Position numbers and translations under genes: made by a program
Shown here: piece after piece, positions 1,264 through 5,589 of the stretch
Numbering within the stretch: position 1 is the stretch's first letter
How the letters are laid out: every line of letters starts with the position of its first letter
Assembly (NCBI GenBank): GCA_028285025.1
Contig: JANQQH010000129.1
Coordinates: 1-10,842, forward strand
Length of the DNA: 10,842 nt
Direction: 5' to 3'
Origin: Hyphomicrobiaceae bacterium
Lineage (GTDB): Bacteria; Pseudomonadota; Alphaproteobacteria; Rhizobiales; HXMU1428-3
The notes under the pieces: generated by a model
Database searches by the model: none
Told to the model about the DNA's origin: nothing
The model's input: the letters and a program-made list of their open reading frames with translations, nothing else

Positions 1264-2904
<1,641 letters not shown>

Positions 2905-2934
2905 AATACGCCTCATTTAACAAAGGGATAATCT

Positions 2935-2988
2935 TTGCCCGTGTGTCTTTGCTATATCTATGCTACACCTGTAAATATCTATGGTGTA
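2935..2988 (+). promoter_or_regulatory. Candidate promoter and dyad/direct repeats upstream of the first exported paralogue
   Basis: TTGCCC (2935-2940), an 18-base spacer and TATGCT (2959-2964) form a weak sigma70-like promoter. An alternative -35 is TTGCTA (2949-2954). ATATCTATG occurs twice (2954-2962 and 2975-2983), 21 bases apart. TACACC (2964-2969) and GGTGTA (2983-2988) form a dyad. The repeats fall at and just after the promoter, where a regulator could bind, but the AT-rich context makes chance matches likely. Confidence 0.25.
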
Positions 2989-3017
2989 CATTTATATAAA
3001 AGAGCAGGAGACTTTAG

Positions 3018-3764
3018 ATGACAACCTTGAAATCTATAACAACAGACTGTTTTAAAGTCATATGTCTCTGTTTATGCACAATTGTGGCAAGTCAAATAAT
3101 GATTAGCCCTGTGTTGGCTGAGCAACCTTTTAGTAAATCTTATTCTATTGCTGGGCAGCCTGTTATTTTAAGTTTGCCTAAGGGCTATTGTCCTATGGAT
3201 GAAAGCAATCTGAGTGACAAAAGATTGATTGATGCTGTCAAATTGAGCGTTAAAGGGGCCAACCAAGTTATAATGCAATATGCCGATTGCCAAGAATTAA
3301 AAGATTGGCGTAGCGGCAAACAAAGATTTCTAAATAATTTTGGTAGCTATCAAACCTCTTTGAGATTTATAAATGTAAATATGAAGGGACGGGAAGCGGC
3401 AACGGTTAAAGAAATTTGCAATGTCTTTAAAAAACAAAGCAAAGAATTGATGGACAAGGTTAAACCTGACATTGATAAACGGATTGAAAATGCTTTTGAT
3501 AATATCAAAATGAATGAAATGAAGCTACTTGGTGTTAGCCATGAAGACAGCACGGTTTGCATTACGGCCACTTTCCAGCGATTGCAAACAGAAAACAAAA
3601 CTAGCAAAGATCAAATGAACATAAGTGCTGTTAATGTGTTGAATGGACGGCTCATGTTCTCTTACCTTTATACGCCTTATAAAGGTGAAAAGGTCATTGA
3701 AAGATACACCAAAACGATGGTTGGTTTAAATAATGTCAACCAGCTTAAGAACAACCAAAAATAA
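3018..3764 (+). CDS. Exported four-cysteine protein of unknown function, copy 1
   Basis: I do not recognise this family. The 248-residue product has a probable signal peptide (K5, K13, hydrophobic about 14-33, cleavage after PVLA, residue 34), so it is likely periplasmic. The mature part has four cysteines, C58 (LPKGYC), C91 (ADCQEL), C134 (KEIC) and C181 (VCIT), all conserved in copy 2, which suggests two disulphides. Another strongly shared block is WRSGKQ...LNN...YQTSL at about 97-115, followed by a charged helical segment (about 125-170) and VNVLNGRL near 205-212. About half of aligned residues are identical between the copies. An excellent ribosome site (AGGAGA, 3006-3011) lies six bases before the ATG. 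It sits downstream of pyrG in the same orientation, 113 bases after its stop, and may have its own promoter. Confidence 0.85.
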   Translation: MTTLKSITTDCFKVICLCLCTIVASQIMISPVLAEQPFSKSYSIAGQPVILSLPKGYCPMDESNLSDKRLIDAVKLSVKGANQVIMQYADCQELKDWRSGKQRFLNNFGSYQTSLRFINVNMKGREAATVKEICNVFKKQSKELMDKVKPDIDKRIENAFDNIKMNEMKLLGVSHEDSTVCITATFQRLQTENKTSKDQMNISAVNVLNGRLMFSYLYTPYKGEKVIERYTKTMVGLNNVNQLKNNQK

Positions 3765-3779
3765 TCAATTAAAAATTTT

Positions 3780-3845
3780 ATGCAGCCGCTTTCAAAAGTC
3801 AACATTGCTGGCCACCCCATTGGTCAGCAAAGCGGATTGGTTTAA
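3780..3845 (+). pseudogene. Fossil duplication joint: degraded kdsA start fused to a copy of the pyrG end
   Basis: This 22-codon mini-frame starts 15 bases after copy 1, as kdsA starts 10 bases after copy 2. Its first 16 residues, MQPLSKVNIAGHPIGQ, align without gaps to KdsA MKPDSKVAIGGQTVSQ with 8 identities; the first 42 bases match at 26 positions. Its last 20 bases (3826-3845) match the last 20 bases of pyrG (2885-2904) at 19 positions, in the same frame and with the same TAA. A kdsA start joined to a pyrG end is the junction expected from a tandem duplication of a unit running from the pyrG tail, through the exported-protein gene, into the kdsA start. It may be translated as a 21-residue peptide, but I expect no function. 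Confidence 0.6.
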
Positions 3846-3889
3846 GCTTAATGCAACAAACATCAATAAAGTTTACCTATTGAGCATCT

Positions 3890-3918
3890 TTGTTATACCA
3901 GAACAAATAATTTATGCT
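3890..3918 (+). promoter_or_regulatory. Candidate promoter for the second exported paralogue
   Basis: TTGTTA (3890-3895), a 17-base spacer and TATGCT (3913-3918) each match the sigma70 consensus at four of six positions. The segment TCTTTGTTATACC around the -35 matches TCTTTGCTATATC upstream of copy 1 at 11 of 13 positions. It lies at the same 42-base distance after the pyrG-type stop, consistent with a duplicated leader. Confidence 0.3.
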
Positions 3919-3995
3919 AAATAGGCTGCCATAAGAAGTGAATAAACAAGAGCGCCTTGTAAAAAGGAACGTTCAGAAGCGTAGGAGACCGACCG

Positions 3996-4745
3996 ATGGG
4001 GTCTAGTAAAAGAACATTGTTATTTTTAAAATTCTTGATTGTCAGCCTGGTGATGACTTGCTGTTTGGCACATTATAGTTTGTTGCGAGCTGAAACAGTT
4101 GCAAGCAAGTCCTTTATGATTTCAGATAAGCCTGTTGCTTTAGTGTTACCTAAAAATTACTGTGTTTTGGATGAAAAACAGTCCTCTGACAAAAACCTAA
4201 TTGATAGTGTTCAAAAAAGTGTAAAAGACGTCAATGAATTATTGGTCTTATTTGCTGATTGTCAGGAGCTTAAAAATTGGCGTTCTGGCAAACAAAAATA
4301 CTTGAACAATCTTGGTAATTATCAGACGTCTTTAAAGTTCAAAAAAACCGATATGACAGGGCGTGAAGCTGAGACGATTAAAGAGATTTGCACCTTATTT
4401 AAAAAACGTAGTGAAACTTTGATGGATGATATTAAACCTGAAATTGATCGACGGATTAAAGAAGGGTTAAAGAATGTTGAGATTAATAAAATGAAAATGA
4501 TTGGTGTCATTCATGAAGATGCTTCCATTTGCGTAACGGCTGCGTTCCAACGGTTGAAAACTGAAAGTGGCACAATAAAAGAACAACTGAATATAAATGG
4601 TGTGAATGTTTTAAATGGGCGGCTTATTCTTAGCCATCTCTATACACCTTATCGTGATGATCAAGCTGTTTTTGATCAATTGAAGGCCTTGATGCTGGGT
4701 CTTAATAAAGACAATCAGCACGCCAATAAAAAACCCAAAAAATAA
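3996..4745 (+). CDS. Exported four-cysteine protein of unknown function, copy 2
   Basis: This 249-residue paralogue of the 3018-3764 gene is of no family I recognise. The signal peptide has K5/R6, a hydrophobic region at about 8-30 and cleavage probably after A32 (LLRA|ET). The four mature cysteines C56, C89, C132 and C179 align with those of copy 1, as do ADCQEL, WRSGKQ, GREA, LMD, FQRL, VNVLNGRL and LYTPY. The alignment needs only about one gap after the signal peptide, and about half of residues are identical. The divergence is spread over the whole protein, so the duplication is old and both copies look maintained. The C-terminus is Lys-rich. AGGAGA (3983-3988) lies seven bases before the ATG. 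The stop is ten bases before the kdsA ATG, and kdsA lacks a clear ribosome site, so the two are probably cotranscribed and may be translationally coupled. Confidence 0.85.
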   Translation: MGSSKRTLLFLKFLIVSLVMTCCLAHYSLLRAETVASKSFMISDKPVALVLPKNYCVLDEKQSSDKNLIDSVQKSVKDVNELLVLFADCQELKNWRSGKQKYLNNLGNYQTSLKFKKTDMTGREAETIKEICTLFKKRSETLMDDIKPEIDRRIKEGLKNVEINKMKMIGVIHEDASICVTAAFQRLKTESGTIKEQLNINGVNVLNGRLILSHLYTPYRDDQAVFDQLKALMLGLNKDNQHANKKPKK

Positions 4746-4755
4746 AAAGTGTTAT

Positions 4756-5589
4756 ATGAAGCCCGACTCAAAAGTAGCTATAGGTGGTCAAACAGTTAGC
4801 CAAGAGTTGCCGTTTCATCTTTTTGCTGGGCCGTGCCAATTGGAAAGCCGTAACCATGGGCTTGAAATGGCACAGGCCCTCAAAGAGATTTGTACCAAGC
4901 TTGGTGTTGGACTGACATTTAAAGCTTCTTTTGACAAAGCCAACCGAACCAGCGCGCAAGGAAAACGGGGCCTGGGGCTTGACAAGAGCCTGGCTGTTTT
5001 CGCTGAGATTAAAGAAACTCTTGGTCTTAGCCTTTTAACTGATGTGCATGAAAACATACAATGCGCCCCAGTGGGGGAAGTGGTGGATGTGTTGCAAATC
5101 CCAGCCTTTTTATGTCGCCAGACAGATTTGTTGTTAGCCGCCGGTCAAACAGGCAAAGTGGTGAAAATTAAAAAGGGTCAGTTTTTAGCGCCGTGGGATA
5201 TGAAAAATGTGGTTGATAAAGTGCTCTCAACCGGCAATCAAAATATCCTTTTAACCGAGCGCGGCGCTAGCTTTGGCTATAATACACTGGTGACAGATTT
5301 TCGTGGGTTACCCATAATGGCGCAAACCGGTTGCCCGGTGGTGTTTGATGCTACTCATTCAGTGCAACAACCTGGTGGGCAGGGCACATCAAGCGGGGGG
5401 CAACGAGAATTTGTGCCTGTATTGGCAAAGGCTGCTGTGGCGGTTGGTGTTGCCGGCTTGTTTATTGAGACCCATAATGATCCTGATAAGGCCCCGTCTG
5501 ATGGACCAAACATGATGCCTTTAAATGAAATGGAATGCCTACTTACCCAGCTGCAAGCAATTGATGGTTTGGTTAAAGCTGAAGCATAA
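4756..5589 (+). CDS. kdsA: 3-deoxy-8-phosphooctulonate (KDO-8-phosphate) synthase, metal-dependent type
   Basis: KdsA condenses phosphoenolpyruvate with arabinose 5-phosphate to give KDO 8-phosphate, the precursor of the KDO sugar that joins lipid A to the LPS core. The 277-residue TIM barrel shows AGPCQLES (24-31), FKASFDKANRTS, TDVHE, LQIPAFLCRQTDLL, KKGQFLAPWDM, GYNTLVTDFRGLPIM and the PGGQGTSSGGQREF loop. The Aquifex-type metal ligands known from the literature (C11, H185, E222, D233) correspond to C27, H201, E238 and D249 here, all with a constant +16 offset. This indicates the metal-dependent class, not the Asn-containing E. coli class. No strong ribosome site precedes the ATG; the upstream gene ends ten bases earlier. 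The stop is only five bases from the stop of the convergent DUF1835 gene. Confidence 0.96.
   Translation: MKPDSKVAIGGQTVSQELPFHLFAGPCQLESRNHGLEMAQALKEICTKLGVGLTFKASFDKANRTSAQGKRGLGLDKSLAVFAEIKETLGLSLLTDVHENIQCAPVGEVVDVLQIPAFLCRQTDLLLAAGQTGKVVKIKKGQFLAPWDMKNVVDKVLSTGNQNILLTERGASFGYNTLVTDFRGLPIMAQTGCPVVFDATHSVQQPGGQGTSSGGQREFVPVLAKAAVAVGVAGLFIETHNDPDKAPSDGPNMMPLNEMECLLTQLQAIDGLVKAEA

Follow-up and report, generated by a model that had tools for sequence, protein, structure and literature searches.

Because natural junctions fade, most of what is understood about the origin of small single-gene duplications in bacteria has been deduced from amplifications obtained in the laboratory. At the level of abstracts, our literature search returned no description of a natural fossil joint from such a duplication, which is no proof that none exists. 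Among the closest described systems, the Ben+ amplifications of Acinetobacter baylyi have junctions with 0 to 5 bp of shared sequence and amplicons of 12 to 290 kb (PMC9997567), and duplications have been engineered in Escherichia coli with 9-bp microhomology borders (PMC11111574). In both, the end of a unit is joined head-to-tail to its beginning with little homology. The birth of a tRNA gene in Pseudomonas fluorescens likewise produced a new bacterial copy by tandem duplication; there, however, the duplications were large-scale and took place in laboratory populations (PMC7661048).

Here, we describe a 66-base segment (hereafter the scar) lying between two paralogous genes, X_A and X_B, at a locus where pyrG and kdsA flank the pair. 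It is probably the novel joint left when a unit consisting of the pyrG tail, X, and the kdsA start was tandemly duplicated long ago, and it is known from one species. As in A. baylyi and E. coli, the end of the unit is joined head-to-tail to its beginning with little homology; the joints described in those species are fresh and were obtained under selection, whereas this one is natural, with a unit of ∼0.95 kb holding a single gene whose copies stand at 49% identity. The present joint appears to represent an event of that kind, preserved as an old natural remnant. The duplication process itself would be ordinary; a scar still readable after the proteins have drifted to about half identity is unusual.

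The pyrG-kdsA locus and the X family

The window, that is, the whole stretch of DNA analyzed (10,842 nucleotides), is an entire contig (G000:C518) of a 2.41-Mb genome in 549 contigs. It carries an open reading frame (ORF), secG, pyrG, X_A, the gap, X_B, and kdsA in this order (Table 1); downstream of kdsA lie the gene for a DUF1835 protein and queF/D/E/C on the minus strand, and then eno. The names que, secG, and eno are those we presume from the sequence. The two flanking genes, pyrG and kdsA, are both open and full length. In the ORF before secG (130-646), there is an apparent frameshift in an A-rich run near 530-545, with the frame 130-576 stopping and the frame 326-646 continuing; a single longer ORF occupies this place in the congeners G005 and G002, and either a sequencing slip or a genuine frameshift could account for the break. 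Before X_A, a 21-base sequence is repeated imperfectly, head to tail (71%), at positions 2954-2995.

Table 1. Features of the pyrG-kdsA interval in the window
Feature	Positions	Strand	Remarks
pyrG (CTP synthase), intact	1276..2904	+	Pfam CTP_synth_N and GATase; 83-85% identity to congeners
Last 20 bases of pyrG	2885-2904	+	Parent of the scar's right half
X_A, first copy	3018..3764	+	248 aa; predicted to be exported from the look of its N terminus
Scar, whole	3780-3845	+	66 bases, 22 codons; ATG-to-TAA frame MQPLSKVNIAGHPIGQQSGLV
Left part of scar, from a former kdsA start (first 17-18 codons)	3780..3833	+	KdsA profile; 13/17 residues of KdsA P0015
Putative crossover zone	3826..3833	+	AGCAAAGC; equals pyrG 2885-2892, also readable as kdsA codons 16-18
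Right part of scar, repeating the final 20 bases of pyrG with stop	3826..3845	+	19/20 identical
Region preceding X_B	3846..3995	+	Predicted copy of 2905-3017; see shuffle comparisons of the flank
X_B, second copy	3996..4745	+	249 aa; same family as X_A; B clade with P0002 and P0003
kdsA (KDO-8-phosphate synthase), intact	4756..5589	+	NCBIfam NF003543 and TIGR01362; start is parent of the scar's left half

Over 245 codons, X_A and X_B are identical at 49% of amino acids and 60% of nucleotides, in line with an earlier reading of this DNA (the sequence-only reading), which had put the proteins at about half identity. Neither protein matched a Pfam or NCBIfam family. The best match of the X structure model (mean pLDDT, 68.4) in a Foldseek comparison with the PDB was Mog1p (E = 4.8e-5; TM 0.36 on the query); with this TM score and a pLDDT of ∼68, the fold serves as a lead, weakly suggesting that X is PsbP/Mog1/DcrB-like. 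X is rare: in a sample of 397 genomes of the order, 6 have it (E ≤ 1e-5), and in the genus, 3 of 8 genomes do, including that of the window. In viral contigs, 43 stretches matched a search pattern, none of them related to X.

The two halves of the scar

Within the gap, a kdsA start is followed by a pyrG tail, both on the plus strand, such that the end of the putative unit is fused to its start, and homologous copies (X_A and X_B) lie on either side. For the kdsA half, we built a profile of the KdsA N terminus from 73 in-register proteins (54 distinct 17-mers) among the best 120 of 8000 scored, leaving out the kdsA of the window, and applied it to 13,642 start codons from the window and from 12 loci, of which two overlap. 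The scar ranked 8th of the 13,642 sites with 23.96 bits; the own kdsA scored 19.7 bits and the next site −0.1. Ranks 1 to 7 all belonged to genuine kdsA starts, representing six genes because one was counted twice, and in the 12 scanned loci no kdsA-like start other than the kdsA genes scored above −0.1. This profile score removes the doubt left by the base count of the sequence-only reading, 26 of 42 identical between scar and own kdsA, which is reproduced here; under each scoring scheme, 1 of 1000 shuffles was as good, and with the whole gap the numbers were 1 and 3 of 1000. The kdsA-like segment recognized in that reading is likewise borne out by the profile; its extent, given there as 14 to 16 codons, is revised to about codon 17. 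Among the best 120 of the 8000 proteins scored, the KdsA closest to the scar was P0015 (MKPLSKINIADHVIGQQ), equal to it at 13 of 17 residues, and the own kdsA shares 7 of 17 residues with P0015. At the DNA level, the first 51 bases of the scar have 30 matches to the own kdsA, 31 to that of G005, and 21 to 27 to those of the other five congeners. The scar ATG lies 15 bp past the X_A stop, compared with X-kdsA spacings of 10 bp (X_B), 18 bp (G006), and 29 bp (G005), and the distance from the scar to X_B is 150 bp, compared with pyrG-X spacings of 113 bp (X_A) and 173 bp (G005).

The second half of the scar repeats the end of pyrG. Positions 2885-2904 and 3826-3845 are identical at 19 of 20 bases with the same frame and stop, as had been noted from the sequence, and when 2840-3020 was compared with the gap, dinucleotide shuffling of the latter reached the score in 0 of 1000 trials under either scoring scheme. 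With the whole of pyrG, the two schemes gave 5 and 0 equally good shuffles out of 300. No other pair in the window reached at least 15/20. In the 2.41-Mb genome, the 20-mer (R at base 9; up to 3 mismatches) occurred at five sites; the pyrG and scar sites were free of mismatches, the other three had 2, 3, and 3 mismatches, and a reversed control pattern gave no sites. A dispersed repeat or mobile element was also considered and set aside, given just three further sites within 3 mismatches in 2.41 Mb. The scar tail resembles the own pyrG tail (19/20) more closely than those of seven congeners (13 to 16/20) or of G045 (9/20), suggesting that the tail is of local origin. Anchored extension to the left of the tail gave a pyrG similarity of 0, as a joint predicts.

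Because the kdsA homology reaches about codon 17, it overlaps the pyrG copy: Q16-Q17 match KdsA and the bases beneath them match pyrG, and the two homologies thus overlap by up to 8 bases. Q-Q stands at KdsA residues 16-17 in P0015 and P0016; AGCAAAGC equals pyrG, whereas the DNA of the own kdsA does not support the kdsA side. A short-homology crossover leaves an overlap of this kind, and a few shared bases were probably used, the kdsA side being read from the proteins of relatives rather than from the own kdsA DNA.

Similarity to the right of the tail was mixed, and we do not count it as support for the duplication. In local comparison of 3846-3995 with 2905-3017, 202 and 404 of 1000 shuffles were as good, and in global comparison 43 of 500. 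Anchored rightward extension ran for 52 bases under one scheme, a result equaled by 5 of 200 mononucleotide shuffles and by 10 of 600 dinucleotide shuffles; under a second scheme, 118 of 600 shuffles did as well, and under a third, all 600. The presumed duplicate flanks of 113 and 150 bases gave no reliable alignment, and comparing the region before X_B with the stretches downstream of pyrG yielded nothing firm, the score being equaled by 43 of 500 shuffles for the own stretch and by 48 to 430 of 500 for those of relatives.

Relatives and the age of the duplication

In the protein tree, there are two clades, A and B, each of which contains one of the window's copies together with copies from relatives: X_A groups with P0004, P0011, and P0005 (A clade relatives are 77 to 87% identical to X_A), and X_B groups with P0002 and P0003. 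The two clades come out as sisters (support 88/86) with the X of G006 outside. Neither A joined with G006 (p-AU 0.087) nor B joined with G006 (p-AU 0.147) was rejected; an exclusive pair of the window's X_A and X_B was rejected (p-AU 5e-79). A wider tree with four long rows left the forks around A, B, and G006 open. The favored topology (88/86) would place the X_A/X_B duplication after G006 split off. P0002 (B-type) and P0011 (A-type) are both listed with a longest contig of 3,137,713 bases, from which we infer a single genome carrying both types, and the duplication would then be older than the split from that species. Judged by a length of 57,427 bases, the A-type P0005 and the KdsA P0014 probably share one JGI contig.

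The loci of relatives bear on the ancestral arrangement. The congener G006 has a single X in the order pyrG, small ORF, X, kdsA, spread over two contigs with overlapping ends; its X and kdsA are 18 bp apart with no scar between them, one case of the scar-free single-copy relative that the sequence-only reading had called for. In G005, the order is pyrG-X1-kdsA-X2 (L024 4270-6678), with X1 34% and X2 40% identical to X_A. No joint was found at this two-X locus, where X1 is too divergent for placement, and the order without a joint points to a different event in which X was doubled otherwise. Four further congeners (G001, G002, G003, and G007) have pyrG and kdsA 186 to 625 bp apart without X; in G004, kdsA was not found, and the contig stops ∼0.5 kb past pyrG. 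Outside the family, X adjoins pyrG in G045 and kdsA in G170, each with one of the two neighbors within 10 kb, which together suggest that pyrG-X-kdsA is likely the ancestral order. In G132, neither pyrG nor kdsA lies within the 9.7 kb read around X. After pyrG in G001, G002, G004, G006, and G007, there is a small ORF of ∼80 codons with a hydrophobic stretch (by eye) and starts such as MFTQV, MFTNV, and MFSNF; it was not seen in the window.

At fourfold sites, the difference between X_A and X_B is 0.55, compared with 0.67 for random sequence (38 sites). A rough neutral clock from these 38 sites gives an expected identity of ∼0.61 along one branch. The kdsA half of the scar fits this clock (26/42; P = 0.52), and the pyrG half lies above it (at least 19/20, P = 0.0007; at least 11/12 outside the overlap, P = 0.023). 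The excess conservation of the tail that had puzzled the sequence-only reading thus persists, with P from ∼0.02 (12 bases) to 0.0007 (20 bases), but is smaller than it had supposed, because 8 of the 20 tail bases may be kdsA homology and because the window's pyrG is under selection. The tail is therefore kept better than neutral expectation, a real but modest puzzle. The A-like C terminus of P0003 (B-type), NQLKNNQQQ, was weighed as evidence of conversion and dropped, because P0007 ends similarly (by eye) and the ending may be ancestral.

Origin of the scar and its possible exchange with kdsA

From an ancestral pyrG-X-kdsA arrangement, DNA within the first ∼17 codons of kdsA would have become fused to the terminal ∼20 bases of pyrG, either by illegitimate recombination or by template switching during replication; the fusion probably used a few bases common to both, all or part of AGCAAAGC. 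The product would have been pyrG-X_A-(kdsA start/pyrG tail)-X_B-kdsA, with only X doubled and both housekeeping genes whole; afterwards, X_A and X_B would have diverged while the joint decayed in place. The order, frame, and spacing of the scar, together with both parental homologies, the lack of a joint in G006, and the A and B clades, were observed directly and support the tandem duplication of pyrG tail, exported gene, and kdsA start proposed in the sequence-only reading. We infer that a single event made both the second copy and the joint; how long the shared stretch was and by which route recombination took place are likewise our reconstruction.

A course of two steps would begin with a larger duplication, giving pyrG-A-kdsA1-pyrG2-B-kdsA2, followed much later by a deletion from kdsA1 to the end of pyrG2 via the same shared bases, with loss of the spare kdsA and pyrG and a scar much younger than the A/B split. 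Although such a history accounts for a scar better kept than A/B synonymous sites and closer to the P0015 kdsA start (13/17) than the own kdsA is (7/17), we consider it unlikely: it takes two events and long upkeep of a spare pyrG and kdsA, and the genus has one pyrG match in each of 8 genomes and kdsA in 7 of 8, the sole second match (G005) being 45% identical and on another contig. Homology-facilitated illegitimate recombination, which needs foreign DNA, leaves a short-homology joint on one side and a homologous one on the other. Applied here, a fragment running from the pyrG tail through X_B to the kdsA start would have come from a congener by transformation, with its homology anchor in kdsA and a short-homology join on the other side. 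The GQQ type of KdsA start, common to the scar, P0015, and P0016 and absent from the own kdsA, fits such an import. The A/B tree (sisters, 88/86) and the pyrG tail speak against it, and since the tail matches the own pyrG at 19/20 and those of seven congeners at 13 to 16/20, any donor would have to be a closer species than those compared; we regard an import as very improbable.

Frame and conservation coincide: the well-kept stretch is an open ATG-TAA frame, and its tail exceeds the neutral expectation, which would suit a 22-codon peptide or leader translated and kept under selection, a role compatible with an origin by duplication. This role is nonetheless improbable, given that no Shine-Dalgarno-like sequence precedes the scar ATG (by eye) whereas X_A and X_B both have AGGAGAC, and that a 22-codon frame easily stays open. 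An RNA element or a terminator was considered as well and set aside: the window had no Rfam match at gathering scores, and 2850-4800 had no terminator-like site (shuffle mean, 1.5), both of which also count against a leader; promoter-like sites (6 found; shuffle mean, 6.0) were not above shuffles. Least credible, and very improbable, is that the kdsA start alone is real and the pyrG match is due to chance. If 8 of the 20 bases derive from kdsA, 11/12 are left to explain, and three other genomic sites come within 2 to 3 mismatches of the 20-mer. Against this stand the shuffles (0 of 1000), the lack of any other window pair at 15/20, and a match that is in frame and finishes precisely with the pyrG stop, at the place where the kdsA homology ends; the fortuitous match that the sequence-only reading had allowed for thus finds no support.

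Under the tandem duplication that we prefer, the scar is a direct repeat of the kdsA start ∼1 kb away, and it may not have been inert. In the KdsA proteins of close relatives, residues 12-18 alternate as a unit between two types, VSQE (P0014, P0013, and also the own kdsA) and GQQ (P0015 and P0016), and the scar carries the GQQ type. In P0014 to P0016, residues 1-11 are identical and the bodies are 96 to 98% identical. Among 172 KdsA pairs with up to 6% body difference, P0014-P0015 (6/7) and P0014-P0016 (5/7) had the most differences at residues 12-18, a segment that is variable generally (36 of the 172 pairs differ at 4/7). An exchange of this block between the scar and kdsA would account for the pattern, a possibility that we regard as doubtful, the signal amounting to two or three residues. 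By eye, the 338-aa KdsA P0019 (JGI) has an apparent internal repeat around VKKGQFLAPWDMKN, which is either an in-frame internal duplication or an assembly artifact.

If the GQQ block did come from the scar, a relic of duplication with partly pyrG-derived codons would have rewritten the N terminus of a housekeeping enzyme. Both breakpoints of the duplication can be placed within a few bases, inside conserved genes that serve as references. The locus in a sister species would gauge how fast the joint decays and whether its halves continue to recombine with their parents. What the window preserves is a natural unit of ∼0.95 kb, containing one gene and sparing its neighbors, that was likely duplicated by a short-homology mechanism.
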